The position numbers and the translations under genes were made by a program. This document shows, piece after piece, positions 20,913 through 53,737 of a stretch of DNA of 64,000 nucleotides (the first letter of the stretch is position 1; the number at the start of each line of letters is the position of its first letter). The notes under the pieces are model-generated. The model did not search any database. It saw only the letters and a list, made by a program, of their open reading frames with translations, and was not told the origin of the DNA. Source of the stretch: Tamarix chinensis (lineage: Eukaryota > Streptophyta > Magnoliopsida > Caryophyllales > Tamaricaceae); the NCBI GenBank assembly GCA_030549775.1, contig CM060171.1:140462859-140526858 (forward strand). Direction: 5' to 3'.

Positions 20913-23629
20913 TGTAACACCCTAAAATTTACTATTAAAAATTTTTGTTTTAAGTAGAAGCGTATAATCAAATAGTTGGGTGTTACTACCGTAATTGACA
21001 TAAGTCTCGCTACCCCCACCATCCTTACGTTAATCACAAGGCAAAATGATTAGAAAATTAAAATGTGATAGGAAAAAATGAGAAAAATTTTAATAACATC
21101 AAATAAGCATTAGGAGATCAACTTCGATTACAATATCAAAATATAACAAAAGGGATCCCATAGAACTAAGAGTCCAAAAAGGTATCCGAGTAAAACTATC
21201 ATCTGGATAACATGATTCTACGCCTAAAACCGTGATACAAAATAAATCACTCCTCCACATATATAGCATCAAAGGCTACGAATTCGTCCATCTGGTCCTC
21301 ATCAACCTGCATATATACATCTGGGTCGTCTACTCGTAAGATTGAGTAATACCTATGAAACAGATGATCAATACCCTAAGTACTAAGTAAGCTAACATTA
21401 CAATCAATCAGGGTTACATATGATAAAAAAATTCTTATAAGAAAATCGTACACGGGTAAATCAAAGAATGCCATATAATTAATGATTCTAGGTCTTTCAT
21501 TAGATATACCATATTTTAATCTTTTATTTATGTTGAGTTCAGAGACCCAACTATTCTTAAACCGGTGGAATGGTCTGAAACACCTTTCGGGGACAATGCA
21601 CCTGAGCCACTATTTTTATTCAGTGGAATGGATTCAACACCTCTTAGAGTAAAATACTCCTAAGCTACTATTATTAAGTTAATGGAACGATCTAAATCAC
21701 CTCTTGTGGACAACAACCGAACCACTATTATTATTTGGTGGAATGGACTCAACACCTTTATCTTAACTCACGTAGTCTTCATTTTAAATGATTATTAACT
21801 TTCTATTTATACTTTATCTCTTAATCATATTTTCATTCATGTTAAGTATGAGCCCCCACTATTCTTAATTCGGTGGAACAGACTGATGCACCTCTCGAGG
21901 ACAACACACCCAAGCCACTATTATTATCTAGTGGAACGAATCGATATAAACACCTCGGCTCGGCTCGACTCACATGATCTTTCACTTTAAATGATTAGTA
22001 ACTTATTAAGAGTAGATTATATATTATCATGTTGAACTCATATAAATGTGCAACACATACAATTGAACAATATAAGTACGACCACGTAATTATCTTCAAA
22101 TGATCATAATACCCTTAGGGTAGTCAAAACAATCGTGTTCTCCTAAAGGCCTTATGAAATCCAATGCATATAAATTTCCAATCATTATCCGAAGTACATA
22201 TTCTCAGTTTCTCATAAATATCTTGTATCCAACATTATACCCAAATACGTACTTACATAATTTTATTATTCTCAAGAACATCATTTCATAGTATTTCCAT
22301 AAATATATTACTCAATACAACATACTCAACACAAAAGCACATATAAAGAAAATACATGTATCCCATAAAACCCTAGCTATGACATGTATCCTTACCAACA
22401 AAGACACTGGGATCTTATGCACATAAATCCTAGACCTCCTTTAAGATCACCAAAATATCACCTTCAAAAATAAGATAAGATACAATTAGGATCGAATATA
22501 CAATCGAGGGAAAATTTAAGGTAGAGGAGGGTAAAATGGAAATAATGGGAGTCAAAGGGAAGCTTGAGTTGTATGGAAGTGTGGTGGAATGTATGGTGGT
22601 GCTATGGTGAAATTTTGGTGGTGTTTGGACAAAGTTGGGGGATGAAAATAGGGGTGCAAGACCAAAAATGGGAAGTTGCATAGCTGTGTTGTAGGTAGTG
22701 CAACTCTGGTCGAGAGAAAAGGTCACGCATGGCCAGACAGTGCTGAGTTGCATGGCTGTGCTACAAGCATACACACCTAGGCCGAGAGAAAATATCACGC
22801 ATGACCAGGTGGTGCAAAGGTTGTACGGTTTTGCGATAGAATTTTTTTAGTATTTCACGGCCTACACTCTGCAAATGTGCGAAGGATGAGAGAAAGAAGA
22901 AAGAAAAAGAGGCGATGTTCGGCGATGATGGTCAATGATGGTGAAGGGGAAGTGATGGGGCTGTCGTGGTGGCTAATCCACCAGGCTGTGGTGATGCTTG
23001 GTGGCTGTGTTGGTGCATGGTGGTGAGGGTGGTGTTTGGCCAAAATAAGGCAATAGTTAGGAGGAAGAAGAAGAAAGAAGAAAGAGGAAAAGTTCGGTAG
23101 GGGTGATGGATAACAATAAAATGGAGGGGTACATATACTAGTATGGTGGCATGACAAAGAGGAGAAAAATGTTAAGGGAGTGGTGGCGTGCAAGCGGGGA
23201 AGATTTGTAGAAAATTATGGAGATGATGGTGGTGCACGAGGGTGACGAAGACAGTAGGAAAAGAAGTAGAGGGTGATGGTGAGATAATGGTGGTGTATGG
23301 GGGTGATGGTGACCGTGTAGAGGAACCCAATTCTTTCATACCACAAAATCAGCATAGGAGAAGAAGGAAAAAAAGAAAAGGAAAAGGAAAAAGATGATAT
23401 AGGTTAGGATTATATTAGGTTAAAAAAATTTATTAGCTAAAAAGGTAAGATTAATTATATAAATTAATCAAAATTAAAGTTACGTTAAGAGTTACAAATT
23501 TTCCGAGTCAAAGATCATATTTAGGTTAGGATTTTGGGATAAAAGAATTAGGGTAGGGCTAAAATAAAATTCTTAAGATTAAGGTATTTATAATTTGGGA
23601 TTAGGTTAAAACAAATTAGGGGTATTAAA
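20913..23629 (-). mobile_element. Solo LTR A, 2,717 bp, 5-bp TSD ATAAT
   Basis: Starts TGTAACACCCTAAAA at 20913 and ends GGGGTATTAAA at 23629 (consensus GGGTATTACA with one change). It is flanked by ATAAT at 20908-20912 and again at 23630-23634. It holds four or five 'CCACTATT..GGTGGAATGG' modules (21540-21960) and a purine-rich GGTGG segment (22.5-23.3 kb), with no gag or pol. Orientation is minus, because GGGTGTTACA is taken as the 3' end of the LTR sense strand. The long frames on its complement (22430-23193) are low-complexity and not regarded as genes. Confidence 0.8.
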
Positions 23630-28107: not shown

Positions 28108-28123
28108 TCTTTATTGATGTTTA

Positions 28124-29134
28124 GCTTGTTGTCTCCTAATATATATATTGATCTGATCCTCAAACCAGTTGTCAATGAGGTGAATAATTTATGGGTATCA
28201 GGGATTAATACTATAGATGCGTTTGATAAAAATGTATTTAAAAATATGTGGTGTAATTTTGTGGACTATTAATGACTTCCATGTTCATTTAATTCTCTAT
28301 GGTTAGAACAAGGGTATAAAGCCTTCCCCAATTGTAATGAAGACACTCCTTTTGTGAATCTGAGGTTTAATATGGGGTACATTGACCAACGAGAATTCTT
28401 TCTGACTACCATCTATGGTAGAAAAATAAGCAATTTGATGGTAAAGTTGAGAATACAAACCCATAAAATATTGATAATGATTTGATGTAGTTGAGTCATG
28501 TTAGAGATTATCCACTATTTAAGCATGAATAAACATTGTGTTTGAATAGGATGAGAGAATTTGATGAGTTAAATTTTAGGAAGAAAATTATATTTTTTGA
28601 GATCCTGTATTGGTTATCTACTACCATTAAACACAACTTAGATATGATGCATGCTGGAAAGAATGTTTTTTTTTAAATAAAAAAATTCACGATGATCCTT
28701 GGTAATAATGGAAAATAAAAAGATAATGAAAAGTGATATTTGATTTGATGCACATGAATGTTAGACCTTAGTTGCATTTGTACTATGAGGGTAATATGTT
28801 GATGAAACCTGCTACGAAGTATACTCCTTTACCCGAGGATAGAAAGACTTTTTTGTGGAGAGTGAAAATTTCTATATGTATTTGCACCAAATTTGAGAAT
28901 GAAAATAATTGACAATGATAGCAAATTGTTTGCTCTAAAATGGCACAAGCATCATGTCATTTTGTAATGGTTTTTTTATTAGTGTGCAACCATTCTTGCA
29001 GAAATAGATTATCAATGCCATTATTAAGTTGAGTAACTTTTTCGCCATGATGTTTGTATGGACACTTCGATTATTTGATTTTGAGAAGGATAAAAAGGAA
29101 GTGATTATCATCCTATGCAAGTTAGAATGCATAT
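28124..29134 (+). pseudogene. CACTA transposase (TNP2-type), fragment 2
   Basis: Continues fragment 1. 'YIDLILKPVVNEV' and 'GINTIDAF' (28150-28230) match the family's 'IDVYLQPLIDELK..GV.TYDA' block. 'TINDF' follows near 28268, a cysteine-poor decayed stretch, then 'ELNFRKKIIFFEILYW' and 'IKHNLDMMHAGKNVF' (28570-28670; family LRHNLDVMHIEKNV). After that come 'RLDLMHMNVRP' and 'YYEGNMLMKPATKYTPLP' (28745-28840) and 'ALKWHKHHVI' near 28935. Frame changes and stops are frequent. The reading is cut at 29134 by LTR unit C and resumes at 42388 after one copy of the CATAT duplication. Confidence 0.85.
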
Positions 29135-30357
29135 TGTAACACCCCCAAATTTAGGGATTTTGTTTAAAAGATTTGATTACGTATGCCAAAACATAAAACG
29201 TAGAGGTGTTACGCTGCATGCAACATATAAGAGGCACTCCATATGACTAGTCTATGTCAGGTGTAAGTAAACGGTAACCTCATACCTAGGAATCATATAT
29301 GGAACTAACTTGATTCCACCACGATATATGGTATAAAATAGAAAAAGGAAATATGTAAAGTGAAATTAGAGGACTAAGAGTCCATAGAGAGATGGAGATA
29401 TTTGGATAGCCATACCCTATACCAATTCGATTAGCACTCACCAAAGGTAAGAACATTACAAATAGAAATTAGAAATCACTTGAAAATTAATGTAGATTTG
29501 CTCATGGGAATGAGAAACACCTATGAAAAGGATAATCATATGCTACATACTAAGGTAACCATACAACCAAAGTAAGGTTACAAAGAGAACAAGCATACAT
29601 GTGAGTTCAAATAAAGTATGGTAAGTTAAATACTAATCCCATAATTCATTATTGGATATAAACAATATCCATTCTTTTATTTACATTGAGTTTAGAGACA
29701 CGATTATTCTTAATCCGATGAAACAGATAGAAACACCTCTCAGGGAAAAACACACCTAAGCCACTATTATTGTCTAGTGGAATAGACCTAACATATATCA
29801 GGAAAACACACTCTTTACCACTATTCTTAAACTAGTGGAATGATTTAAAGCACCTCTCAGGGCAAAACACACCTGATTTACTATTATCGTCCGATGGAAT
29901 GGACACAACACTTTGGTCCTGACTCACGTAATATTTTACATTAAGTGATTATATATTATCCATTAGTACTTATTTCTTAATCATAAGTATAGTTCACAAC
30001 TATTCGTAATCTAATGGATAGGACTGATGCACCTATAAGAAAAAAATACATCTAAGCCACTATTTTTGAAATACCCCAGAAATCCCAATTTAGGAATTAT
30101 GGAAATATAATGATTTATTAGAGAAATTAAGAAAATAAATTATTTTATTAAACAAAGAGGAAATTAATTGAGGAAAATAAAGAGAAAATAATAAATAAAT
30201 TATTTAGAAAATTTTGGACCTTTAAATAATTAAAAGGGAAGTTAAGGAAAATTTATCTAAAATAGGAAAATTAATCTAAAAAGGAATTTAATTATTATTA
30301 TTATAATAAATATTATTAATTTTAAATCTTCAAAAAAAATACCAAATACCCAAATTA

Positions 30358-31600
30358 TCCCAAACCACCTATTTTCTTTCTCCTCCCTTTTTTTCCTTTT
30401 TCCTTTTTCCTTTTTTTCTTCTTTCCTTTCCTTTTTTTCTTCTTTCCTTCTTCTTCCCCTTTCTCCTTTTCTCTTCTCCTTCCCTTCCCAGTTTGGGCCA
30501 GCTCAGGGCCAAAACTCCCATCTCCTCCCCGTCTCACGCGGCCAGGCCCGCCCCATCTCCCTTTTTTAACTTCGCACCCCTCCTCCTCTCTTTTTCTTCT
30601 TCCTTTTTCTTCCTTTTCCTTGCCCTTTTCCCGCCTGGACCGACCGGTCCAGCCCTCGCGCTCCTTCTTCCCCAGCCCTGACCTACGATACCAACCTGTA
30701 GCCCCAATTCTGCTGACAGCCACTAGCCAACGACCGGTTGTCCTTCCCTGCCCTCTCCTTATCATTTTCTTCCCTTTTCTGACCCCGACCAACCCCATCT
30801 CCCCTCCCCGCGTGCCCATTTCCTTTCCTTTTTTCTCCTACCCCGATCCAAATGTACCCTGTAATTCGCAAGGCATGCGCCGCTTGCCACCGCCGGTCGG
30901 TGACCTACCTCACCTGCCCCCGGTTGTCTTCTTTTCCTTTTGTCGTTTCCCCCATCAATTAGCCTATAAATACACCCCAAGGGCAGCCATAATTGAGCTC
31001 CCTTTTTTGTAAGCCCAAAAATTCAGCCATTTGCCGCCACCCAAATAGATCCTTACTCTGCCGCCGTCGACGACCGTCGTCGCAAAAGCCACCCACAAAA
31101 ACCTTCCCCGCACCTCCCTCTACAAAATCGAGCCATCACCATCCCCTATTTTTCCCTACACGAGCCACCCCGGCCGTGCAAAGTTGTCAACCCGATCAGC
31201 CCACTCCTGACTCTCGCCGCCCCTCGCGCCGCCTTCCGCTGCCAATCCTGCTGCAACTAGCACCTCCTCCACCCTCTAAAACATCCGGGGAACCTTCCCC
31301 TACCTTCATCTCCCCCTACCTCCCTCTCCTTCTACTTTATCCTCTTCCACCACCTTCCACCACCTCACCAACCGCCGTGCGCCGCCACTCTCGGCTGCAA
31401 CACCACCTCCATTCCACCCCTCTCCACCCGCTGCACCTTCCACCACCTCAAAAACCCCTCCACTTCCTCTCCTTTAGCCTACATATCCATCTTCCACCTC
31501 TCTTCCTCCTCCATTGCCGCCGCCGCCGTCGCCATGCGCCACCGCCGGTTCTACCACAAACCTTAGGTGGTATTCCAACTCCCCCAGCCCTTAAACTATT
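30358..31600 (+). other. GC-rich promoter-side block of LTR B with long proline-rich frames
   Basis: A pyrimidine tract (30361-30490) is followed by about 1.1 kb of GC-rich, CpG-rich sequence, exceptional in this AT-rich window. Open frames of 130 and 210 codons (30620-31012 and 30993-31625) translate to P/S/L/R-rich low-complexity protein. The corresponding blocks of LTR N (36.28-37.52 kb) and LTR D (46.13-46.96 kb) also give long but unrelated low-complexity frames, so the open frames are a by-product of composition rather than genes. The block contains the TATA box at 30965 and is read as LTR U3/R promoter DNA. Confidence 0.6.
30965..30972 (+). promoter_or_regulatory. Candidate TATA box of LTR B
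   Basis: TATAAATA within 'gcctataaatacacccc', in GC-rich surroundings, at the point in the LTR where U3 would end. Transcription would start about 30 bases on, near 31,000. It supports reading LTR B on the plus strand, from TGAAATACCCC to GGGGTGTTACA. Confidence 0.55.
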
Positions 31601-31619
31601 TTCTATAAGTGTTAATAAT

Positions 31620-31849
31620 TTTTAGTAATATTAATAGTATTATCCTTAATATTATTATTATCATTATTATTATTAGTGTTGTATTATCATTGTTATTGTT
31701 ATTAGTATTATCTTTATTAATATTATTATTATGTATCACTATTATTACCTAACCTAATTTTAGAAATATTTATAACTATGGTATACTATTTAAAAGGCTA
31801 CAACTTTAGCATTAAAAATAGTTATCCTTATTATTACTATTGTTATTAT

Positions 31850-31914
<65 letters not shown>

Positions 31915-32635
31915 TTATTATTATTGTTATTTCTATTACTACTACTAATACTATTATCATTATTATTATTATTAACAACCTTAGTATTAATATAGTTATA
32001 TTTATTATTATCGTTATTATTATTATTACTAATACTACTACTATTACCACTACTAATACTATTATCATCATTATTATTATTATCGTTTCTTACTAAACCT
32101 AACTTGGCCATTATCACTAAGACTACCACTAAGACAAATTCTAGGACCACCATTGGTATTAACCCTAAGATGAAAGCTATTACTAATATTATCACCATAT
32201 CTATTATTATTATTATTATTATCATTATTAATACTAATATTATTTAATACTACTACTACTATAAATAATATTATTGCTAACTTGCTTATTGCCCGTATTA
32301 TTGATACTAAACTTGTCCATTATTACATTTTTATTATTAACATAAATATTTGGACCCTTATATTATTATTACCATTTCGGGTACCGTTATTATTATTATT
32401 ATTATTATGATTTTTTTACTATTATTATGACAAAAATATATTGAACTCTTATATTATTATTATTCAAATATAACTATTAACATTAGGAAAATTAGTACTT
32501 TGTCGGTATCACTATTATTATATTATTATTTTAACCCTAACACTATTATTAGCATTAGCCTTAAAAATGCTATGGTTTCTATTACTATAAGCATGAGCAT
32601 TACTATTATTATTGTTATCATCATTATTTTGCTAC
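31620..32635. repeat. Trinucleotide-rich region (ATT)n with a pure (ACT)n core
   Basis: Nearly a kilobase of interrupted ATT/TTA/ATC triplets. A pure ACT tract runs from about 31850 to 31912 (over 20 units). On the minus strand this makes valine or serine runs inside open frames at 31790-32225, which are artefacts. LTR N is inserted at the right end of this tract. Confidence 0.9.
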
Positions 32636-33354
32636 TGTAACACCTCCAAAATTCACTACTGAAAAATTTCGTTAATTAAAAGGAAGATTAGCGGAAGCAG
32701 ATAAATAAAACGTGAACTTTGGGAGTATTACCGCCACACTTAGTACCAAACCGGTTCACTCATACCGTTCCATTACCAAGTACTAAGGCTAAGAAAATGA
32801 AATACAATTCGAAAGACATTCAACATGCATAAATCAGAGTAAATTGCAAGAACTTCAACATATTTAAAACAGAGTAGCGCATCAAATCGTTTTCAGGAAT
32901 AAAATCCACCGATGGTGGTTAAAGTACCAACATAACATCAAAACCAGGGAATTAAACGAAGAAGGAGGGAAAACCCTAACGATACCGGATAACTCCTTAC
33001 TCTCTTTCCCGTAGCCCACTTGAGTACCACCTGAAAAACCTGCAAGGGCACTGCCCATTGAATAGGTAGGGGCCCCATAAAGGGAATCCCTTCAGTACTA
33101 TGGTACTGAGTAACCCTTTAATACCACACTTAAAGATAGGCCCGCATACGACACATAATGCAAACTACACACATGAATAATATGAGGTACATGCATAACA
33201 ATAACATACATAATAATTTATAGGTCACGATCGATACTTTGGGCCTTAAGCCATGTCATAGTGTGAGATCAATACATTCGGGCCTTAAGCCATTATTCTG
33301 TCATTAATCCATCAATATCATATTTTATATCCATGTGAGTACGAGAACCCCACT

Positions 33355-33800
33355 ATTATAGCCGGTGGACCGGAAGTCAACACACAGGGCAGAACGCCTC
33401 TGACCACTATTATTGCCGGTGGACCGGAAGGTAAACACACAGGGCAGAATGCACCTGACCACTATTATTTGCCGGTGGACCGGTTTGGCCCCGACTCACA
33501 TGGTGTTCCACTATAAGTGATTAGTAGTTTTCCATAATCTGATTCACATACATAACCGATTTTATTGAGCTCGGGACCCCCACTATTATTGCCGGTGGAT
33601 CGGAATACAGATAACTCATCATCCAGGGCACAACGCTCCTGGCCACTATTATAACCGGTGGACCGGGATATATAAAGAATCATCATCCAGGGCACAACGC
33701 TCCTGGCCACTATTATAACCGGTGGACCGGGATACATATAACTCATCATCCAGGGCACAACACTCCTGGCCACTATTATAACCAGTGGACCGGTACTCAA
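33355..33800. repeat. Tandem CCACTATTAT / CCGGTGGACCGG modules in LTR N
   Basis: Seven modules of about 54-65 bases, each ending in a dyad close to CCGGTGGACCGG (near 33361, 33415, 33472, 33591, 33656, 33718 and 33782). Each is preceded by CCACTATTAT and separated by 'CAGGGCA.AACG.TCCTGG'. The dyad arms CCGGT and ACCGG are perfect complements around a GG centre. Related modules occur in LTRs A, B (reversed), C, D and E, with CG steps often decayed to TG or CA. Confidence 0.85.
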
Positions 33801-34499
33801 TATCATAATCATCTGGGCCCGGCTCATTAATATTTCACTTTCAATAATAGTGTCTTTCCTTTTCTTTACTCAGCACATCAATCATATTTATTTGCCTCGA
33901 ATGGGAGATCGATAACCCGGGACACAAAGGTACACCGGTCGTACCGGTGCATATCAGCTACTCCGTACCCTTTAACCATGAACCCAAGGACGCAAAGGTA
34001 CCTTGGTTATACTGGTGCATAAAGCTAACTCAGTACCCTACCGACAAGGACACCTAATCCATAAGTATGCATACCCGCTAATTAGGTCCGTAGAGCTAGA
34101 AAGAGTAAGATATAGGGCCTGGCTGGGGCACAAAGGCACACCAGCAAATACTAGAATAATCGTGGACTAAACCACGTCTTTAGGGTAGCGACCCCTAAGG
34201 AGTCACCATTCCCGATCTCGAGGTCTTTCACTTTAAGTAATAGTGTCTTAATTAAGGTGATCACATAAAGCACGATAATTCCGATACTTATTCACTTTCA
34301 ATCGTTTCGATATCATTAATCGTTTCTTATTCAGAGGATTATCCAGGATGTCATAGAGAAACCATCAAGGCCATACTAATCATTAGATACTCTTACTTGG
34401 CTAATCAGCATTATTTAATCATATTAATATTCCACAATCTCAAAGGCATGTTAGGTACAAACTACTCATTTTCCCTTTTCTTATATAATTGTTAAGTAT

Positions 34500-35720
34500 C
34501 CATTCCTTACTCGCCAAATTACCGTATTACCCTTTAGGTTACATAATTACCAAATTACCCCTTGTCCAATTTAGATTACCAAGATTATCCCCTACACTTT
34601 TTAGATCACCATTCACCCCTCATAATTACTACACTTAGCATATTTCCCATTTGGTTGGTTATATTACCAAGTCGCCCTTCTCCTTTATTAAAATTATAAA
34701 ATTGCCCTTGAGTTGGATAAATTACTAAATCACCCTCCTTCATTATCATGATTACTATTTTTCCCCTTTAGTTGGTTAAACAATTATCACTTTACCCTTT
34801 TATCGGCTAAATTACCAAATTGCCCCTTTAGTTGAACAAATTACCAAATTGCCCTTCTCCTTTATCATAATTACCATTTTACCCATCTCAATTATTTTAA
34901 TTGCCATTTACCCTTTTTAATCATTATAAATTCCAAATTAACCTTCATCATAATTAACTTACCCCTCTTCATAATTACAGTTACCAATTTTACCCTTCTC
35001 CATATTTAAAATTACCATAATGCCCTTTAATTGGTTAATTTACCAAATTACCCTTCTATAGCATCATACTTATCCAATTGCCCTTCTACAATCATAATTT
35101 TAATTTCTAAATTATCTTTTGTCGTTATCATAATTACCACGTTACCCTTTACTCCCAAGTTTACCATAATATCCTTTTATTTACAAAATTACTATTTTAC
35201 CCCCTTACGTCCAATTTTACCATAATTTCCTTTTATTTATGAAAACTACCACCATACATCTTTCACTTTGCAAATTACTATTTTACCCTTTTACATCCAA
35301 GATTACCATCTTTATCTTTCCATACATAATTACCATTTTTCCCTTCTTTCCCAAATTACCATATTACCCCTTTACTTATAAATTACCACTTCACCATTCA
35401 CTTATAAAATTTACCATATTACCCTTTACTTATGAAATTACGATTTTTCCACTTTACCTCCAAAATTACCATAGTGCCCTCCTTCATCCAAAATTACTAT
35501 TTTACCCCTACTTCCAAAATTACCATTTTACCCTTCTTTCTCACAACTTACAATTTTATCCTTTACTTGTAAATTATCATTTAATCATTTAATCATCAAA
35601 CTTTCATATTATTCTTTTATCTCAAAAATTACCGAAATACCCTTTTCACTTATAAAATTTTCACTCAGCCCCTTTATTCACCATTTTTATGAATTTACTA
35701 ACACTATATAAAATAATGAT
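34500..35720. repeat. Degenerate AAATTACCAAATTACCCTT array in LTR N
   Basis: About 1.2 kb made of imperfect units of 15-35 bases built on 'AAATTACCA' plus 'TTACCCTTT', dozens of times, with drifting spacing. The plus strand is almost free of G; the minus strand is a run of GGGTAAT and TGGTAAT words. Open frames across it (35031-35592) reflect this composition only. The same array occurs in LTR D at 44.84-45.49 kb. Confidence 0.85.
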
Positions 35721-36279
35721 ATTAATACTTCATTTTTATCATCTAAGTCCACCAACTTGTCATTTTTTAACATAATACTCATTAGCAACTACACACATTG
35801 ATTTATATACCTCATAAGCATAATTACTAAAATACCCTTAAACAATAACATCATTCATGCATTAACAACATGGTACATCATAAACAAGTATTTAACATTT
35901 CTATCCATATTCCAACTCCTTTATTTAACATACCTACATATGGCACAAAAGTTATCATGCTTTTTATTTTTAACAAACAATATAAGAAACCATAAACATA
36001 TCATGCTAAGCATACAAAACATGCATAAAATCATACTAAACCCTAAATGTGCTAGCATGCGTTTTTCCATATATTTAATGGAGGATTAACGGTTACCTTA
36101 ATCCCGCAAAATATCAAATCTTACCAAGCATAATTAGCAACTCAACACCTAAAAATAATATCCATCATTATTGTTAGAAATAAGAAGTTAAAAAGGATAA
36201 AACTTTATAAAATTCAATTAATAGAACACTTAATATAAAATACCATTATACCTTAAAAATTAGCTAAATAATTTTTAAA

Positions 36280-37520
36280 ATGAAGGGGAGCTCACGCTGC
36301 ATGGGCAGCGTGAGTTTCATCAAAAACCATGGGGGAAAAAGCTCAAAGAGGGTGAAGGGAGCAAAATCCATTATTTTTCGGGGTTTGGGTATTTAGGCTA
36401 GAAAAGAAGGTGGTTAGGGGAGGTTTCAAGGCAGGGAAATGGTGCAGAAGTGAAGAGGGGTTGTAGGTGGAGGCTAAGGGTCGTTTCAAGGCGGCTCAAG
36501 GCGGCGGAGAGGCGGCGAAGGTGGCTGCCAAGATGGGTCGAGGGAAAGGGGTTGTGAAGGAAGGAAAAGGAGAGGGGAAAATGGAGGGGTGCAAGAGTTG
36601 GTTTCGGCCAACTAAGACATGGCGGTTGTAGAGGGGGTTGCAGGGTGTCGAACGGTGGGTTGGGTGGCGGCAGAGGTGGCCGGACGGCGGCGGAAGCGGC
36701 GGTTGCAGGTGGCTCAGCGGTAAGGGGAAAAAGCTGGGAAGAAAAAGGAAGAGGAGGAGAAGGGAGGAAGTGTAGGGCTCGAGGGCGGCGTGGTGGTGCA
36801 GGGTGGTAGTATGCGGTGGCAGAAGGCGGCGCAGGGATGGGCTTGGTGGTTCAGGTGGCAGAGGCTGGCGGTGGTAAAAAAACGAGGAAGAAAAATGGGG
36901 AAGAAGGAAGGAGAGAGGAGGGAGCTCGGGGGAAGAGAAGGGCTCGAAAATGAGGGGAATGGAGGGCTGGGGAGATGGAGAAAAAGAAGAGGGAGAAGAG
37001 AGGGGCAGGGATGGCCGGCGATCGACGCTACAGGTGGCAGGTGGTGGTCGGGTGGCAGGGGAAGACGGGGAAGAAGAAGGAAAGAAACAGGGGCACGCGG
37101 GTGTGGTCCAAGAGCCGGTTTGGCTCGAAAAGGAAAGAAAATGATGGGGGAAGAGAGAGAGGGAGAGGGAGGTAGGTGATGGCAGTTGCAGGGCAGCTCG
37201 ATGGTCGGGCATGGCGGCAGGTATGGTGATGAGGACTGGTCGGGGTGATCGAAGAAGAAAGAAAATAGGGAGAGGGAAGGAGACCCAACCGTCGCATAAG
37301 AAAAAAAAACAAGCGGTCGGCCCGGTTCAGGGGAGAAGAAAAATAAAGGGGCGTTTGGGCTGGAGGTCAGGCGTGCGCGAAGAAGAAGGGGGCGGGAGAG
37401 ACGGGCCGAAGGCCCAATGCACAGGGAGGAGGGAGAGCAGGCCGGGCGGGCGGCCCAAGGGGGAGAAAAAGGAAAAGAGAAGAAAGAAGAAAAGGAGAAA
37501 AGGAGAAGGAAAAGAAAAAG
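36280..37520 (-). other. GC-rich promoter-side block of LTR N
   Basis: A purine-rich, CpG-rich stretch equivalent to 30358-31600 of LTR B on the opposite strand. It contains 'GAGCTCACGCTGCATGG' with an inverted partner near 36285-36315 and ends in an AAGGAG-rich tract. Long open frames on both strands (for example 36496-37212) translate to low-complexity P/S- or G/R-rich protein and are not called as genes. Confidence 0.55.
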
Positions 37521-40500
37521 GGAAAAAGGGAAAATAGGGGAAATAAATTAAATCAATTTATAAAATCATAAAAACGTAATATTTTTGATAAATTATTTAA
37601 TTTAATAATTTAATTCATTATAATCTAAAATATTAATTTAAAAAGGATAAGGTGAGTAAAATATTAGTTTGGAAAATTATTTAAATAAAACAATATGATA
37701 AATAGCAAAATATTTATTTTTAATTTATTAAATACTCTTATCCAAATTTACATACTCCAAAATCCATAAAATAATTAAAATAAATAATCTTAAAGCACTT
37801 TTATTCCAAATAAAAGTAATTTATTAAAATATAGGTTTTTGAAATATTTGGGGTATTACAGCTACAATTAGTATTAGTACTATTATTATAAGAATAAAGC
37901 TGTTAGGTTTAATAATATAAGTATAGCAGTAAATATTTAAAATAAACATATTTTGGCTAGTAATATCTAGTAGGCTAACTTGAAGATAAAAACTCTAGTT
38001 TTCAAGTATAATGCTTCCTTTAATAATAATAACCCTAATCTTAGACTAAAATAAGGAGTAATGGTACTTTTGGCAGAGGGAAACTAATCCTTCGTATTTT
38101 CCCTCTTATAGGTGAATAGAGCCAAAACCCTAAGGAATCGTAGGAGCGTGCTCTAAGCCCAACATCGTTTTAGGTAAGGATGTAGCTAAGGCCCAGGTGT
38201 GTTATGTGACTTTTATGCCTTGGATGATATATATCATGTTATGTTGTGTATCGTATGATTTTCATTAACTTGTCTTATGTGTAGCGCACCTTGGAGTTGA
38301 GGTATGTTTGTATGTGTTTCTTATGACATGAGTATGATATGTATATGTGGTGATTATGGTGTGATATGATATGACCCTCTAGGACATACATGCTAGGAAA
38401 ATTGATAATATGATATGAGAATGAAAGGACAAAAAGAAATAAATGGGAAATGAGTTCATTAAGGGGGATATGAGGTTGACCAAAATACCTCATGATCTAG
38501 GAGAGGAAATTAAGGAGGAAGAAATGACCAAAATGAATGAGAGATGGAAACCATGCATGGGGATCCTAAAATTTGCATGGGGACTTTGGGTATTTTCATA
38601 GGAAGGATAAAACTCGCATGGGGGTGATCTTCACGTGACAAAAGTTGATTTAGGGTGTAAATAAGATAAGGGGATAGTTGTGGAGTGATTGGAGAATTGG
38701 GATAAAAAATAGTATGCAGGTTGGTGTAAGGGTGTGTAAGGGACCCGATTAGGGTTTTGGGAGGAAGTAGTAATCTGGAAAATGTGGAAGTAAAAGTGAT
38801 TAAGAGAGAGTGGAGTACGGGTTAAGAGTGAGAATTTATTATATAAGGGGTGAGTATGGGTTCCATGAGAGAGAATAGATTTTGGGTGAAAAGAGAGAGG
38901 TTACTTGTGGGATAAGAAAGGTACCAGGGTTGAAGTGGCCAACTAGGGTTTTTTCGGTCACATGTGGAATCAAGTGGTAAAGCGATATGATTTGGGATTA
39001 GATCTAAATGAGATAAGGTGTGGGGCGATAGATGAAGTAATGGTAGTGTAAGTGAGAGAAAGTTGGGCCACATAGGTCCAAGTAGGGTTTTCAAAGGAAA
39101 ACCCTAGAGGGTGATAGTAGGTGGAGTTTGATGTCATGAAGTGTTGGGCCTTAACCCACACCCTTAGGAGTTAGGGTTTTTCATTTTGTGTAAGGTTAAG
39201 GGAAAATGGATGTCGGGGCAAGATAAGGGGCGCATGACTCTTAAGATATGGGGCGAGCCCCTTTGAGAGGGTAGAGGTAGAATGTTGGTGACATGCATGT
39301 TAAGGGTGAAATACTTATCGAATAAGACACAAATAATATATTATCCATTTAAAGAGAAATATTTTTGAGACGAGCCCAAACTAGTCCACCAGCGAATAAT
39401 AATGGCCAGCAGCCAGGGTGCCCTGCATGATTGGTCCACCAGTGAATAATAGTGGCCAGGCGCATTTTGCCCTATATGACCGATCCACCGGCTATAATAG
39501 TGGGGGTTTTTTACTCAACAAACTAAACATAATTGTGATAAGACATGGGAAATATACGAAGTAATTACAGTGAAACACCATGTGAGTCGGGGCCAGACCG
39601 GTCCACCGACGAATAATAGTGGCCAGGTGCATTTTACCCTGCATGACCGGTCTATCGGTGAATCATAGTGGCCAGGAGCATTTTTCTCTACATGACTAGT
39701 TCACCGGCTATAATAGTGGGATTCCTGCACTCACCTGGATTGATAAATACTATGATATGAATTGATTATATTTACCAAAGATCTAAAGAATAAGTCTATC
39801 CGGACCGTAGCTGGCATTTATCATCTATTTTACTATATGCTACTCATGCGAATATGACATGTATAATGTGTTGTGTGTTTTGTATGCTGGCCTTAGCGCA
39901 TCTGCTACCTTACTCACTACATAGCATATTGATCACCCGTTTCATGGGTGCTGCTCATTCTCACGAGTAGAAGACCCGTCTGAGTTTGTGCAGGTAGGGG
40001 ACGACATCTTTGATGCCTACGATACTTACGAGGCATTGGGTGGGGCTGAGCGTTGAGCCTAGACCTGACTTGGGGATCGAGAGTGACTCGGCCGAACTTT
40101 GTTTCTTTATTGGACCATGTATTATTTTATTTTAGTTATGTGGTGTCGAACAATCCTTTATGTTTTAAAAAACTCTAGTCACGTACTCTTTGGATTGTAA
40201 TCCTAAATCTCACTCTGATTTATGTATGACTTGTGTTTTACTAATGACTTGTGTTTTATTAATGACTCGTATTGGATGTTAACCTTGTTTAGCCTTAGCA
40301 CTTAGTACTAGAATGGTAAAAGTGAACAGATCTGGTACTAAGTGTGGCGGTAATGCCCCCAAGTTTACGATTTTATCTTTTTGATTATGTTAAATCCTTT
40401 TTATTAAATGAAATTTTTCGGTAGTAATTTTGGGGTGTTACAATTTTCTTCAATTGGAACGGATCCATAAAAACACCTTGTCACAACTCGTGTGATTTTT

Positions 40501-42387
40501 CACTTAAAATGATTAGTGTCTTATTCAAAGTTGGTAATATTCAATATCATCATGCAAGAGTCATATAGATATTTATAACACATAATTAAAACCATGTAAG
40601 GCACAACCACATAGTTAGCAAGGCCATTCTCAAAGAATAGGTGATTAATTCCCTGAATATTTTGAATATTATAATGAAAACATTGAAAATCTATTTTCTA
40701 TTTGAAATCATCAAAATTCCATTTTATCCATAATTAACTGAAATGCCATTTTCTTACTAAAAACCTAAGAATCTTATATTAGGCGAATTGTATCTTACTC
40801 GACCATCATTTAATTTTCATTACTTATGGAATATTAGATAACACCCTCAAAACTTATCAGGCTAAGATTATTTCCCTTATTACCATTACATGACCAAAAT
40901 GACCTTACGATAGCCGAAATACTCATATTTTCCCCAGCTCTTTATGAATCCCAATATAAATACATTTCAATCTTTGATATTTATACGAGATGCATAACCC
41001 CAACTATGTACATAGATACAATGTATCTAACATTATACTAAAATGAATACTTTCTTGTTTTTCTTACTTGCAAGATATCATATTATAGCATTAACAACAT
41101 CCATATTATCCATGTAACATTATTAAATAAGATATCACATACAAATACACGTTACACATACAAGTCCTACCATGACATGTATCCTTACCAACAAGGACAC
41201 TGGAATCTTAGCACGTAATCCTAAACTACATTCTCCAAGATAATCAGAAGATTACCTACAAACACAAGAGTAATCTATAATTAGAACTTGAGAATACAAA
41301 TCAAGGTAAAAGTTTAAGGTAAAGGAAGGAGTAAATTAGAATAACCTAAACCAATGGAAAGATTGGGTTGCGTTGTGTGGAAGTATGGCAAAATATATGG
41401 TGGTGCTAGAGTGGAGCATGGGTGTGCTAAAGGAACGACATGGGCATGACATGTAGTGCATGCACATGATGAGAGTTAGGAACAAACACAAGTGGGTTGT
41501 GTGAGGTTTGCTCAGTCGTGCTCAACGTGCACAGGTAAGATAAAAGAGGGTGCATGGTTGTGTGCAAAACCATCTGTGTGTATTGTGTAAGAGGGCATGG
41601 CTAGGGCATGTGAGGGTGTATAGCCGTGTGTCTCAATAAAAAAATATAGTACAACAGCAAAGAACAAAAATGAGGTGGTGTGGTGTGGTGATGATTGGCG
41701 ATGATGAGGGGGAATGATAGGGTTGTATTGTTGGTCAGTTTTCTAGGGAAATAGAGGTGCTTAGTGGTGGTGTGTGACATTGATGGTTGTGGGCAGAAAA
41801 AATAGAGGGGAGGAAAGGAGGAGGAGGAGCATATATCACATGTGTGAAGAACGATAGAGAAGGGAAGACATGCACGAGGGAAATGATAGGGGTGGTGCAC
41901 AAGCAAAAGGGTGAGGCACGATTAGGGTGTGATGGTAAAAATTCAACGTGACATATCCTATTGATTTGTGGGAGATGATAGTTGATGATGAGGGTAAGGA
42001 AGGTAGGCCATAATAATATGGTAGAGGGTATGGCTGGGTGAGAGATTCACACAAGGAAAAGAGGGAGAAGAAGAAAAAGAAGATAGTTTGGCAAAGGGAA
42101 TAAAAAAATGGAAAAGAAAAGGAAACGGAGGAAAATTAAAGAAAGAGGAAAAAGGAGATGGGTGTGGGCTTATGGTTAAGATCAAGTTACAATTTTTGAT
42201 TAGCAAAATTTGGAAAGATTAAAATATCAATCCTCCGGGATTAGGTTTAGGTTAAAAAAATATAAATTAACAGAAATAAATATTAGGATTAGGGTAAGGT
42301 AAAATGTCAATTTTTGATATATGAATTGGGTTAAGGTATTAATTAATTAGGATTAAGACTATATAAAACTTAGGGAATTACACATAT

Positions 42388-43128: not shown

Positions 43129-43274
43129 TGTAACACCCTCAAAATTTACTACTGAAAAATTTTGCTTTGATAAAAATTTAGCAAAAGAAAAAATAATTAA
43201 TGTTGGGGATGTTATCCCCACACTTAGTACTAGACCGGTTTCCTTCTATCGTTCCAATACCAAGTGCTAAGGCT

Positions 43275-43275
<1 letters not shown>

Positions 43276-43343
<68 letters not shown>
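43276..43343. repeat. (GA)34 microsatellite
   Basis: A perfect AG dinucleotide run of about 68 bases inside LTR D, at the spot where LTR N has 'AAGGCTAAGAAAATGAAA'. The expansion is therefore specific to this copy. Confidence 0.97.
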
Positions 43344-43344
<1 letters not shown>

Positions 43345-44839
43345 ACATTACACAAAACTAACTTATAAACTAAATCAGATTTGTGCGTTAAATCACCTTA
43401 CAAAAGGTAAAACCCACGATTAGTGGTTACAAGAAAATAGAATAATTACATAAGGAATTATTTAAGCTTAAAAGATATAAGAAAAAAACTTCCCGGACGT
43501 TCCTTACACTCTTACCTAATGACAGCTAGAATAACACTTGTAGTTAACCCGTAAGGGACATTGCCCATTGAATAGGCAGGGCTCCACAAAGGAAACCCTT
43601 CAGTTCTACGATACTAAGTCACCCTTTATACAAAATTAAAAGGCAAGGTCCATATGAAACACATCATACATAAACAAATGTAAAAACAATGTCATAAGCA
43701 AGAATATAAATAACCACAACCATATAAGAGCAATTACATAAAACCACCAATAAGACCTGTATAACAAGAAGTCTATTTACTTAGCATTTCCAGCTCTTAC
43801 CATGAAAGACAGGCATGAAGGCCATATTTATATCATAACAATAGATCATAATGGTGAAGTCAATACTTCCAATCTTAATCCATTATTTAAACATTATTCA
43901 ACATCATCTCTCGAATTATATCCATGTGAATATGGGAATCCCACTATTATAGCCGGTGGATTAAAAATATCCTCCATGGTAGAACACACCTGACCACTAT
44001 TATTTGTCAGTGGACCAGTATCTAGGGTAGAAGTCTCCTGGCCAGTATTCTCGCTGGTGGATCAATCTGGCCCTGACTCACATGTGTTCCACTATAAGTA
44101 ATTAGTACCTTTTCTATGATTTGTTATCATCCAAGGTTTGGTTTATTGAGCTCAGGATTCCCCGGTGGAACGAAATACACTCCAGGGCAACACATACTTG
44201 GCCACTATTATTTACCGGTGGACCGGTGTCTAGGGCTAATTAAGGTGACTACGAGAAACACAACAATCATATAATTAATCATTTTTATTTTTTTTATGTT
44301 ATTATTAAGTAATCCTTATTCACATTGTTGTCCACATTAACTTAAATAATTCACTAAGGCTATCCTAGGTTCCAATTCTTATACTTAGGCACCTTAGGTC
44401 AAAATGACTAAAATGCCTCTAAGGTTAAGGCTTCCTCTTATCATCTATTTTCATTACAGAATTCATTTCCATTTCCATAATAGGTTATCATATCATAATT
44501 ATAATATTGGTCATAGAATCAAGTATTCTATACCAAGGGATTATTGAATACATAAACCATAACATGTACTTTTAGCACATCCAACATACATTTCTATGCA
44601 TAGTTAATAGTTAAGGCACCTCTTACATGATTATGAAATAAACATCATATCATACCCTTATATATCCATTCAACCTTATACCATGCATTATCCTTATGAC
44701 ATTTATCGATTTATCAAAATACCCTTATCCTTATAATATATATGGTTATACTTAAACAAGTGATACTAATTCCATAAACCCTTATTCTATTATTTAATAT
44801 CCCTTATGTCTTATTATGGAGGTTTATTAAATCAATTTC

Positions 44840-45490
44840 CATGTTATATGCAATTTACCGATTTACCCCTTCATACTTACAAACTTACTAAAATACTCCT
44901 ATTGTTTGTAAAGTTACCAAGTTGCCTCTTTTTACTTACCAAATTACCAAATTTCCCTTCATACTTGTATAATTACCAAAATACCCTTTATATTTATTAA
45001 ATTACCAACTTACCCCCTCATACTTATTAAATTACCAAATTATCCCTCATACTTGTATAATTACCAAGTTACCCCTCTTTCATGCCAAATTAATAAAATA
45101 CACCCTCTTACTTACTAAATTACCATTTTACCCATTTTATTAATAAAATTACCAAGTTCCCCTTTTATGCCAAATTTATGAAAATATCCTTCTTGCTTAT
45201 TAATTTACCATATTACCCCTTTTGTTCATAAAATTACCAAGTTACCCCCTTTTATGCCAAATTTACCAAAATACCCTTCTTACTTATTAATTTACCATAT
45301 TACCCATTTTTCATGCCAAAATTACCAAACTACCTTTCTTATTTACTACTTCACTAAATTACCCCTTTCTCTTGCAAACTTACCAAAATACCCTTCTTAT
45401 TTATTAAATTACCATATTACCCCCTTTTTACTCATAAAATTACAAATTTGCCCCTTTTATATTATAATTACCAAAATACCCCAAACACAA
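44840..45490. repeat. AAATTACCAAATTACCCTT array in LTR D
   Basis: Same kind of degenerate array as at 34.5-35.7 kb but about half as long, with units such as 'TACTTATTAAATTACCA' and 'AAATACCCTTCTTACTTATT'. The open frames 44806-45000 and 45254-45556 lie entirely within it and are compositional. Confidence 0.85.
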
Positions 45491-46127
45491 AAAATGTTAA
45501 TACCTATGGTCCACATGCATTATCTAACACCACCAACCATTATTATTTATTATTAATACCCATTATCACCTACCATACCCACTTACTTAGGCCAGACCCA
45601 TTGTACAAGTAAAATTACTAAAATGCCCATAGCGCTCATATTAACATTATCTCTACTACAAATGATCAAATTTGCTTACATAACATGTACATGTATCTAA
45701 TATCAACATTAACAACAAGGCTCCTTTGTTAACCATCATTTCTACACATGACACATTTCATAATATAGCATGCTTTTCATTTCAACTACCAACATATGCT
45801 ACAAATCATAATATACTTAACATTGCAAAATATGCATATACACATATTCAAAACCCTAATGTGCTAGCATATATATATCCACACATGTTAGTAGGGTATA
45901 ATGATTACCTTATTTCTAGCAATAATTAAACTTTACTAGTAAGTTAGTTAAAAGTTTAAACCTTGATTAGTAAAAATTTGTACCCATAAATAATATCAAA
46001 ACTAGCATATTAGTAGTAGAAAATTAAAAGAATAAAATTTTATCAAAAAGCTTAGTAAATACATATAAATGCTAACTATATTTATACCTTAAAAATTGTT
46101 TAAGCAACTCAAAATATGCAACAAGTC

Positions 46128-46963
46128 TTACGTTGCATGGCAATGTGAGCTGCATGCATAAAATAGGGGGAAATATGATTGAAGAAGGAAGTTGGAAGAA
46201 GGGGGAATGTTTGGTTCGGGTAAAGGTTTTGGAGCTTCGGTTAAGGGTTTGTGAAGGGGAGTGAGGGTGGTTGTTGGGTGTAGGGAGAGTGGCGGAGTGT
46301 AGGTGGTGGTCAGGGGTTGGAAATCGGTGGCTCGGGGCAATAGAGAAGGTGGTAGCAGGGGTTGGAAAGGTGGTGTAAAGGAAGAGAGAAGAAGGAGAAG
46401 GAAGGAAAAAGAAGGGAAGAAATGAGGGGTTGTAGGGGAGATCTCAGACAGATGAGGTAGGGAGGTGGTAGAGGAGGTGTTAAGGGGTTTATAGGTGGCT
46501 TTGGTGGCGGAGGAAGAGAGGAGATGGAAACACAAGGTGGTGGTGCAGGGTGGAGGTCGAGAAGGAAAGAAAAGAAAAAGGAAGGGAAGTGTGGATGTAG
46601 GGGTGAGTGGCGCAAGTAGGGGTGGCCAGGGTGTTGGTGTGGTGGTTGGTTGGGTGGAAGAGGAAATGGTTGAGGGTAATGAAGCAAAAATAGGGGAGAA
46701 AAGGAGGAGGGAAAAAAGGAGAAGAGGGCTTGGTAGGGGGAGAAGGAGGCTCAATGAGGGAAAAGAAGAAGAAGAAGGGAGAATTAGGTCGGTTGGGTAG
46801 GGGAGAAATAAGGGAGATGGGGAGAAGGGAAAAAAGAAGAGAGGGTTGGGCTAGCCCAACTAAGGGAGAAAGAAGAGAAAAGAAAGAGAGAGGGGGCATT
46901 GAATGGTGGGGAAGGAAAGAGGTCCAACGACCTAGTGGGTGGGGGGAAGAAGAGGCAGATTAG
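46128..46963 (-). other. Purine-rich promoter-side block of LTR D
   Basis: GGTGG- and GAGAAG-rich stretch that aligns in position with 36.28-37.52 kb of LTR N. Long frames on either strand (208, 136 and 125 codons on minus, about 100 on plus) are low-complexity. It is less GC-rich than in LTR N, with many CG steps changed to TG or CA, as expected of an older methylated copy. Confidence 0.5.
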
Positions 46964-47357
46964 CCCAAGGAGGAAGAAAAGAAGAAAAAGGAAAAAGGAA
47001 GAAAAGGAGAAAGAAAAAAAAGAAAAAGGAAAAGGTGGAAAATAAAAATAAAATAATTTTTTGGAATTAGGGTATTTAGTTATTTAGATGGATAAATTAT
47101 TTTAATAAATTAATTAATTTAAAATTTAAGGTATTAATTTAAGAGGATAATTTTAGTAAAATATGGGTTTGAAAAATTATTTAAATAAAAAAATATGATA
47201 AAATAAAAAAAATTATTTGATTTATTAAATAATCATATATAATTTTATAAATCAAAATTACACAAAAAAAGTAAATTAATAATTTAAAATTAAATTATCC
47301 CAAATGAAGATTAATTATTAAATTCTAGGTTTTACACTTTTAGGGTATTACACTTTT

Positions 47358-47955: not shown

Positions 47956-48463
47956 TGTGAGATCATTAATTACATTTCTATGTTCTAGCATGGATTTATG
48001 TATACAGGTGTTTGAAGAATTTTTAATCCAAAAGGAGATCAATTGAGATACTTAATCCTGTATTATTTTAGCAAAAGTCAAAAGTTCTGGAAAAAAACAT
48101 GGGGCCTCGTGTTTATGAACACGAACCGTAATCTTTCTTGTTTTCTATCATTCACTTGTTTCAGTTACATACTCTTATAAATGGATGTGTATGAAACCCT
48201 AGTGAAAATGATACGCCATTAAACCTTGTCCAAACCCTCTCCCCTTATATTTTCTTGGTTTGTGAGATAATTGTGTACTGAGTGATATTGTGAGGATTGT
48301 TTGATTCTCTTTATAATCACTAGTGATGTATGCAATAAATATCATCGTCGTTTCCCTAATTTTTATTGTGTTCTTATTGTTATCTCAATTAGATCTTATA
48401 ATTTCCTCAATTTCTTATTAGATCAAGTCCTAGACATTCATGTTTGATATTTTTCCCCCTACA
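47956..48463 (+). repeat. 5' LTR of copia F
   Basis: Shares the order of blocks with 53176-53732: '..GGTGTTTGAAGAA', 'CATGGGGCCTCGTG', 'AACACGAACCGTA', 'TATAAATGGATGTGTATGAAA' (a TATA-like start region near 48177), 'TAATCACTAGTGATGTATG' and the end 'CCCCCTACA'. Confidence 0.75.
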
Positions 48464-48465
48464 AT

Positions 48466-49604: not shown

Positions 49605-51007
49605 TGTAACACCTCCAAAATTTACACATTTTTTTAAAACAAGACTTATAAATTAAAACCATAAATTCTAGGGATACTACTGCCACACTTAGTACTAGAA
49701 CGGTTCACTCCTACCGTTCTAGTACCAAGTGCGAAGGCTAAGAAAAACTACACATAATATTATTAAATAATCCAACTTCATGAAAACAGAAATTAGAATA
49801 GTCTTTACATAATTTGAAAATACTAGTTATTGTTTTTTAGGGAATAAAAATAACAATAATAATAAAATTGTTTCTGCAGATTCAAACATAATTAAAAGAT
49901 AACACGAGTAATAATCTCAAAATAAAGACCGGCCATGCCACTCCTAGGATATTTATTTCAACCCAATCATCACTCGTCCCCACTTGATGTCCCATAGACA
50001 TCAATAACATCAAAATAAGCGTCTCCTACCTGCAATACATCAGACGGGTCTTCTACTCGTGGGAATGAGTAGCACCATTGAAAAGGGTGATCAGTACGCT
50101 ACGTACTGAGTAAGGTAATCGAATACTAAGGCCAACACATAAGCATATAAAATCATGCAAGACAATATTCATCTTACACTTTCATACTCACACATGTAGT
50201 ATATAAGGTTATGAAGAGATTTATACAACTTAAAAGAAATGATCAAGCCCACTCATAAAGGCCCAATTAGTTCGGATTAATTTATTTAATTAATCTTTTA
50301 TCAGAAGTCGAATCACACCATGCCTTTTATCAAATCCATGTAAGTACATGAACACTCTACTATTCTCCGGTGGGCCGATCACTTGCGGGAAAATAGTCCA
50401 CAACACTATTTTTCACTGGTGGAACGGTCACTTGTGGGACAATTGTCCACACCACTATTCCTGACCGGTGGATTAGTCTGGTCCCTACTCACATGGTGTT
50501 CCATTGTAAGTAATTAGTGTCTTTTAAGTACTTTAGCAAACTTCAGTTTGTGTTTATTGAGCTTGAGGTTACTCTGTTATTATTGCCGGTGGGCCGTGGG
50601 AGGAAAGAAGAAAGGAAAAGGGATTAGGCCGCGTCGCAGGCCCAACCGGCGAGAGAAGAAAAAGAAAAAGAAGAAAAAAAAAAAAGGAGGGGAAAAAGGA
50701 AAATTTAAGTGGTTTGGGGTTAAATAAATAAATTAGAATATTTTGGGTATTTAAAATAGAAAATTAAAATAAAATAATATTAAATTTCCTTTTTAGGCTA
50801 ATTTAGGATTTTTAAAAGACTTTTTCTAAATTCCTTTTTAAGTAGCAAAAATATCAATTTTTCCTTTATAAAAATATTTATAAATTTCTTAATAATTTAC
50901 CCTAAATAAATCTTTCCCATTCGAAATAAAATAATTAATTAGATTAATTCCCTAATAAATCCTTATTTAATTATATTTCTTAAAATAAATATTTTTGGGG
51001 CATTTCA
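49605..51007 (-). mobile_element. Deleted solo LTR E, 1,403 bp, 5-bp TSD TTTTG
   Basis: Starts TGTAACACCTCCAAAATTT at 49605 and ends TTTTTGGGGCATTTCA at 51007, flanked by TTTTG at 49600-49604 and 51008-51012. Removing it together with one TTTTG restores the copia integrase reading across the site. It keeps the terminal block, the 'CACACTTAGTACTAGAACGG' block, two or three dyad modules (50355-50595) and the A/T-rich far end. The middle, including the ACC array and the purine-rich block, is gone; the junction lies near 50590-50600. Confidence 0.85.
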
Positions 51008-53732: not shown

Positions 53733-53737
53733 ATGAG

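Follow-up and report, generated by a model that had tools for sequence, protein, structure and literature searches.

Background and Question

What keeps an array of short repeats in place within long terminal repeats (LTRs) that have otherwise drifted far apart? This question is raised by six LTRs, here called N, B, C, D, E and A, in a 64,000-nucleotide stretch of the Tamarix chinensis genome (assembly GCA_030549775.1, contig CM060171.1, positions 140,462,859 to 140,526,858 of the forward strand; hereafter the window, numbered from its first letter). A preliminary description of the window had reported tandem modules with a perfect dyad, CCGGTGGACCGG, in all six places, had suggested a protein-binding array or an RNA hairpin series, and had called the modules a dense methylation target as well. 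We find that the perfect palindrome is nearly confined to one copy (N), whereas a bipartite core is what the copies share. We give about an even chance to the reading that the array is a putative protein-binding cis-regulatory element, enhancer or repressor, in the U3 of a long-LTR, Del-like lineage of Ty3/Gypsy retrotransposons.

A Bipartite Core Recurs in Six Arrays

All six LTRs carry the core CCACTATTAT-n2-4-(C/T)NGGTGGA in 4 to 7 copies, which lie in one orientation and in two blocks. In the window, CCGGTGGACCGG with up to 2 mismatches gave 22 matches against 0.39 expected (both strands, palindromic sites being listed twice), a number reached in 0 of 100 shuffles, and CCACTATTAT with up to 1 mismatch gave 37 matches against 9.41 expected. 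A scan for both halves, separated by 1 to 6 bases, yielded 52 places with a score of at least 15/21. This threshold alone returns noise, because 30 first-order Markov sequences of equal composition averaged 35.8 such places. At a score of at least 18 there were 26 places, every one within the six arrays (the null was run at the 15/21 threshold only). We counted as modules those standing in tandem within the arrays, which gave a total of 34 (N 7, B 6, D 5, E 4, A 6, C 6). The scan list supplied 32 of them; added were the fourth module of D, which has no left half, and the sixth of C, which is split by B.

The perfect dyad was present in 6 of the 34 modules, five of them in N (5/7) and one in D (1/5), and in 0 of the 22 modules of B (0/6), E (0/4), A (0/6) and C (0/6). 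The right half in A and C is nearer to GTGGAAYGG. Since the first base of the right arm also differs between N and B (C in 6/7 and 5/6 modules, respectively) and A and C (A in 6/6 and 5/6), the perfect palindrome need not be ancestral. GTGGNCC, with 12 of its 20 places in the window inside arrays, was rejected as the shared element because it is absent from A and C. The arrays reported earlier are thus real in all six places, at coordinates correct to within about 20 bp, and it is the exact dyad that does not hold for most modules. Restriction to a single lineage, named beforehand as a finding that would speak against the proposal, is nearly true of the perfect dyad and untrue of the bipartite core.

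Each array follows one plan, namely an arm (TGAGTNCGGGACCCC-like), a first block of modules, a linker (GACTCACATGGTGTTCCACTATAAGTGATTAGTA in N) and a second block. The first block contains 3 modules in N, B, D and E and 4 in A and C; the second contains 4 in N, 3 in B, 2 in A, C and D and 1 in E. The gap between the two halves alternates between 4 and 3 bases in A and C and is 2 or 3 bases in N, B, D and E. Tandem Repeats Finder reported periods of 55 bp (33350-33483) and 63 bp (33580-33793) in N and of 49 bp in B (39596-39719) and E (50367-50472), and did not list the arrays of A, C and D. Counted from the TGTAACACC end of the LTR, the array starts at 567 bp in C, 636 in A, 715 in N, 724 in B, 750 in E and 813 in D, although LTR lengths span 1.4 to 5.2 kb. 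As had been proposed, the array is kept at one LTR position, here in six independent, diverged LTRs.

Cores Are Conserved While Modules Turn Over

Conservation was measured as mean pairwise identity in an alignment of the six sequences, using columns with letters in at least 5 of them. The five cores reached an identity of 0.721 (108 columns), compared with 0.535 for the spacers (71 columns), 0.595 for arms plus linker (115 columns) and 0.508 for the LTR upstream of the array (517 columns), so that an equal conservation of modules and flanks, which had been set as a refuting check, did not occur. Because the columns of tandem repeats are not independent, we added a random-block test, in which four blocks of the same lengths were drawn 20,000 times from the other columns, LTR start and core 5 included; 4 of these draws equalled or exceeded the mean of cores 1-4 (0.696). 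The earlier statement that the sequence between and around the modules has diverged more applies to the spacers and to most of the LTR upstream. It fails for the LTR start (0.84 over its best 20 columns) and for the linker after block 1 (GACTCACATGGTGTTCCACT; 0.77), which rank with the cores. The array is one of several constrained spots in the LTR.

Modules were also compared with one another, with the LTRs divided into two groups (N, B, D and E versus A and C). Core identity fell from 0.80 within one element to 0.77 between elements of the same group and 0.68 across groups, and spacer identity from 0.72 to 0.61 and 0.50, respectively. As spacers are more alike within than between elements, modules would turn over by tandem duplication within a lineage, and the data indicate that units were multiplied and homogenised within lineages in this way while the core was kept.

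Nested Insertions Order the Loss of CpG Sites

The window is AT-rich (33% G+C) and contains nested plant-type retrotransposon remnants. The six hosts are solo LTRs with an exact 5-bp target-site duplication (TSD) in 6/6; TG...CA termini are found in five of them, LTR A ending in AA. They are independent insertions of diverged relatives. N was inserted in B, and the B insertion falls between the two halves of one C module, which gives the insertion order C, B, N.

We also considered A and C as the two ends of one element with an internal region between them and rejected this, the Pfam matches in that interval (6 of its 18 frames over 60 aa) being to a CACTA transposase; because their TSDs differ, A and C are separate solo LTRs. 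The CACTA (En/Spm) remnant lies at 28057-28482 (+) and matches Transposase_21 (tnp2) with E = 3.1e-8 in its first piece and 0.044 in its second. No coding domains of the array-bearing elements were seen in the pieces searched with Pfam (9 of 11 frames over 150 aa, and the 6 frames mentioned from the 23-29 kb interval). None of the 9 frames passed the cut-off, one DUF3915 match (E = 0.013) falling below its own.

The dyad has two CpG positions, and 38 of the resulting 68 sites in the 34 modules still read CG. Among the 30 lost sites, 28 read TG, CA or TA and 2 read otherwise. Retention was 13/14 in N, 7/12 in B and 3/12 in C (5/10 in D, 6/8 in E and 4/12 in A); loss thus runs C > B > N, matching the prediction from nesting order, and the nested insertions provide a small ordered series of CpG loss at one site. 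The CpG observed/expected ratio of the N array is 0.71. These counts suggest that the common ancestor had both dyad CpGs, which old copies would have lost through methylation-type transitions. Moreover, 25 of the 72 CCGG sites in the window fall within the 2,313 bp of arrays plus arms. This density, together with the type of CpG decay, is in keeping with the earlier remark on the modules as a dense methylation target.

LTR Ends Favor a Position of the Array in U3

Del elements have been described with the U3 attachment site TGTAACACCC and, in type A, a U5 attachment site with GGG at -8 to -10 (PMC4029996). In the frame used here, TGTAACACC stands at 6/6 LTR starts and GGG at -8 to -10 in 6/6 ends; TGTAACACCC is exact in 4/6 LTRs and matches at 9/10 bases in N and E. 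These ends resemble the published attachment sites of the Del (Tekay) lineage of Ty3/Gypsy. They fit better in the present frame than in the opposite one, which would place the array in U3, upstream of the promoter. Orientation by TATA box was tried and abandoned, candidates occurring in both frames and none seen conserved (B, N and D pieces).

The Array Folds Like Ordinary Sequence

Segments within the arrays had mean fold z scores of -1.34 to +0.46 on either strand, with a minimum of -2.45; the means for the two strands of the whole window were -0.27 and -0.29. A score of -3.9 was found for segment 50581-50700, which overlaps just the last 17 bases of the E array. RNAalifold returned a 5-pair structure of -1.06 kcal/mol. 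Pairs were counted in the 21 of 34 modules that have a full unit up to the next module, leaving out the 12 block-terminal modules and the fourth of D. Shuffles reached the observed paired cells in 249/500 cases and the covariation score in 145/500 for CCAC/GTGG, and in 57/500 and 72/500 for the CCGG/CCGG dyad; neither showed covariation beyond shuffles in these 21 modules. The intermodule hairpin CAGG/CCTG showed a weak excess, with 15/500 shuffles reaching the paired cells and 29-66/500 the other measures, in a control that ignores relatedness. Compared with the same hairpins shifted by 1-3 columns, all three paired more cells in register (90.3% versus at most 48.5%, 75.0% versus 51.9%, and 72.2% versus 48.8%), as any dyad must; structures read off the same sequences tend to pass this control. 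Rfam at gathering thresholds gave 0 matches, and 0 tRNAs were found. Excess fold stability was not observed within the arrays, nor was covariation beyond shuffles for CCAC/GTGG or the dyad, and the earlier suggestion of an RNA hairpin series is not supported.

A stronger structure candidate than the module array is an inverted repeat that lies some 90 bp in from the LTR start, at 49692-49725 in E (GTACTAGAACGG...CCGTTCTAGTAC). Homologous zones lie at 32731-32797 (N), 40291-40380 (B) and 43190-43278 (D). Its fold z score is about -7 on both strands in E, -3.3 in B and unremarkable in N, and the ungapped identity of the zone is 80% among N, B, D and E, as against 40% with A and C. A further strong local fold was seen on both strands at 12541-12660 (z of -4.9 and -5.9).

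Weighing the Explanations

A short core in one orientation, a variable copy number, freer spacers and a similar place in the LTR argue for an arrayed protein-binding site. A protein would bind the core, in the simplest case a host factor that would drive LTR transcription or set its timing, and the strength of the array would be set by copy number and spacing. The palindromic CGG-CCG repeats of Sirevirus LTRs (PMC2829016) offer a precedent. Six diverged LTRs, with most of their upstream sequence near 50% identity, have kept the array at one position, which suggests a cis element required by the lineage. A number of observations weigh against this reading. The LTR start and the linker are conserved to the same degree as the cores, which makes the array one constrained spot among others; tandem modules are not independent, and aligning flanks that have diverged this far gives too low an identity for them. 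At position -3, which is reported to be conserved in Del (PMC4029996), B and E have T, and the opposite frame has A at -3 in 6/6, though GGG in just 4/6, and starts with TGTAATACC or TGAAAT(A/G)CC in the four LTRs printed. No promoter was located, and no conserved TATA-like site was seen in either frame of the aligned B, N and D pieces. The best-looking TATA-like site is CTATAAATAC at 30964, which lies within a pyrimidine-rich stretch of B and faces the opposite way; with transcription in that direction, the array would belong to the transcribed R/U5 part. Finally, no relative was found in the collections searched, which were of viruses and prokaryotes and not of plants. The strict module pattern occurred in 0 viral contigs and 0 prokaryote genome contigs. 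The relaxed pattern was found in 8 viral and at least 118 prokaryote stretches, with one match in each stretch among the matches listed, which we take for chance, and the linker pattern in 1 viral stretch.

Alternatively, the array could be a functionless tandem repeat from a common ancestor, kept alike by repeated unequal exchange and chance. Homogenisation within elements is indeed clear, spacers being more alike in the same element than between elements of one group (0.72 versus 0.61), and both period and copy number vary between elements. However, turnover should homogenise the spacers too, which leaves the cross-group difference between cores (0.68) and spacers (0.50) unexplained, and the position, the two-block layout and the linker are also kept; we therefore regard this explanation as rather unlikely. 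A structured RNA leader, in which hairpins within modules (CCAC/GTGG, CCGG/CCGG) and between them (CAGG/CCTG) would be framed by arms closing the blocks, appears quite improbable in view of the ordinary fold z scores, the five pairs of the RNAalifold structure and the ease with which shuffles equal the CCAC/GTGG and CCGG pairings. It has in its favor that the dyads are visible by eye, that the block arms of N are complementary (CCATGTGAGT with ACTCACATGG), that the predicted folds of the first blocks of N and E close these arms, and that the hairpins gain from register and CAGG/CCTG pairs beyond most shuffles, within the limits of both controls given above. We also assign a low probability to a silencing-related site, whether a target of host methylation and small RNAs, which is what has been proposed for Sirevirus palindromes, or a VANC-like decoy or anti-silencing target. 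The CCGG density and the predominance of TG, CA or TA among lost CpGs, the mark of methylated-cytosine deamination, fit such a site, as do the VANC targets, which are same-orientation tandem arrays with units changing together (PMC5735166). Yet what the CpG decay suggests is methylation of dead copies rather than an attraction of methylation by the array, and the VANC21 motif YAGTATTAY does not occur in the arrays; CACTATTAT is one base away, and single-base changes drastically cut VANC21 binding (PMC5735166). Very unlikely, in our estimate, is that the array would be the recognition site of a dedicated anti-silencing or self-recognition factor, possibly element-encoded or co-opted, as a Ty3/Gypsy counterpart of VANC whose CpG half is read methylation-sensitively.

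Coordinates and Other Features of the Window

Table 1. Module arrays and host LTRs in the window
Feature	Position	Strand	Description
N, 5' arm of block 1	33326..33349	+	contains CATGTGAGTACGAGAACC; partly complementary to 3' arm
N, block 1	33350..33483	+	CCACTATTAT-nn(n)-CCGGTGGACCGG module three times, one every 54-55 bp
N, 3' arm and linker	33484..33532	+	conserved; GGCCCCGACTCACATGGTGTTCCACTATAAGTGATTAGTA
N, block 2	33580..33793	+	four modules, 63-64 bp period
B array	39381..39719	-	six modules, 3+3 (39598-39719, 39381-39503)
C array	29701..30066	+	five whole modules and left half of sixth; right half of sixth at 40451-40462, past B insertion
D array	43941..44226	+	five modules; fourth (44162-44173) without left half
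E array	50354..50597	+	four modules
A array	21548..21939	+	six modules (4+2), gaps alternating 4 and 3 bases
LTR N	32636..37860	+	solo, 5,225 bp, TSD GCTAC both sides, nested in B
LTR B	30067..40442	-	split by N, own length 5,146 bp, TSD ATTTT (30062-30066, 40443-40447)
LTR C	29135..42382	+	interrupted by B, 2,867 bp after subtraction of the insertion, TSD CATAT
LTR D	43129..47352	+	solo, 4,224 bp, TSD CTTTT
LTR E	49605..51007	+	1,403 bp, short beyond array on far side, TSD TTTTG
LTR A	20913..23629	+	2,717 bp, TSD ATAAT, terminal CA is AA

Downstream of the module array, N (34795-35582) and D (44855-45482) contain AAATTACCAAATTACCC-like units of about 29 bp repeated in tandem. The far-end stretches of the LTRs N (36290-37540), D (46128-46959) and B (30326-31625) are purine-rich in the LTR frame, with 57% G+C in N, and have long open frames mainly on the opposite strand; those sent to Pfam had no match. 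The B stretch contains the CTATAAATAC at 30964. Another LTR-like start, TGTAACACCC, lies at 7334; the next 6 kb are without CACTATTAT, and no end with an exactly matching TSD was found. Elsewhere, an unidentified 410-bp direct repeat (48055-48465 and 53325-53734) is 75% identical, and a 24-bp tandem repeat, ATTCATGCCCGGATTCATGCCCAT, occupies 61680-61776 in four copies with 93% matches.

Comparison with Known Systems

Repeated short protein-binding motifs occur in plant retrotransposon LTRs, as in the tandem enhancer boxes in the U3 of Tnt1, Tto1 and ONSEN; these are Ty1/copia elements, and their motifs are different from the present core. TCP was rejected as a binder, its class I and II consensus octamers occurring 0 times in the arrays. 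VANDALs are DNA transposons. The targets of their VANC21 and VANC6 proteins resemble the present array as a dense, one-orientation motif in noncoding transposon DNA, with tandem units diverging together (PMC5735166, 2017). VANDAL elements encode their own binder, with the motifs YAGTATTAY and AGTTGTCC/AC, and the gain and loss of VANC motifs is rapid (PMC5735166), whereas the core described here is kept across diverged LTRs. VANC target arrays (PMC5735166, PMC10398659) share their dynamics with the present array, not their motif. VANC21 was rejected as a binder, YAGTATTAY occurring 0 times in the arrays and 2 times in the window, and the hosts being LTRs.

Del LTRs, at about 1-5 kb, are of similar length, and both attachment sites and CpG islands have been reported for them (Cruz et al. 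2014, PMC4029996). The main text of that paper is without the terms tandem, hairpin or palindrom-, and no such array is described in the parts of it available to us. In the open-licence literature searched, for the 12-mer of the dyad, six element strings and related descriptions, we found no description of the present array; the 12-mer had no occurrence, and the six strings gave unrelated titles among the matches listed. The earlier remark that no described function was known agrees with these searches as regards the present motif, but needs qualifying for palindromic CGG-CCG arrays in LTRs, which are described in Sireviruses (PMC2829016).

In Sirevirus LTRs, palindromic repeats have been described whose core is CGG-CCG, with a single element as the exception, and a role in regulation has been suggested; these RM boxes number at least 8 copies per element, cluster in the upper half of the 3' LTR and have diverged flanks (Bousios et al. 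2010, PMC2829016). Like these boxes, the present modules are short repeated dyads, and C-CGG-TGGA-CCG-G in N fits the CGG-CCG signature. Sireviruses belong to Ty1/copia, whereas the LTR ends here resemble those of Del. What is conserved in the present array is not the palindrome but a bipartite unit, one half of which is AT-rich, and the modules lie in two blocks. The signature occurs in 9/34 modules (5 in N, 1 in B, 1 in D and 2 in E) and in 0/12 of A and C. With the perfect dyad in 6/34, a palindromic CGG-CCG unit is not the conserved motif, and in this respect the array differs from a Sirevirus RM box array. Modules number at most 7 per LTR, internal regions being absent here, compared with the at least 8 per element of Sireviruses. 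According to PMC10760457 (2023), citing a 2016 study, small RNAs concentrate on the Sirevirus palindromes, and maize Ty3 elements are generally without an obvious structural peak, with which the folding of the present array agrees. If a single host factor binds the core, that would name a switch of a long-LTR Gypsy lineage, and arrayed CpG-bearing repeats would not be peculiar to Sireviruses.
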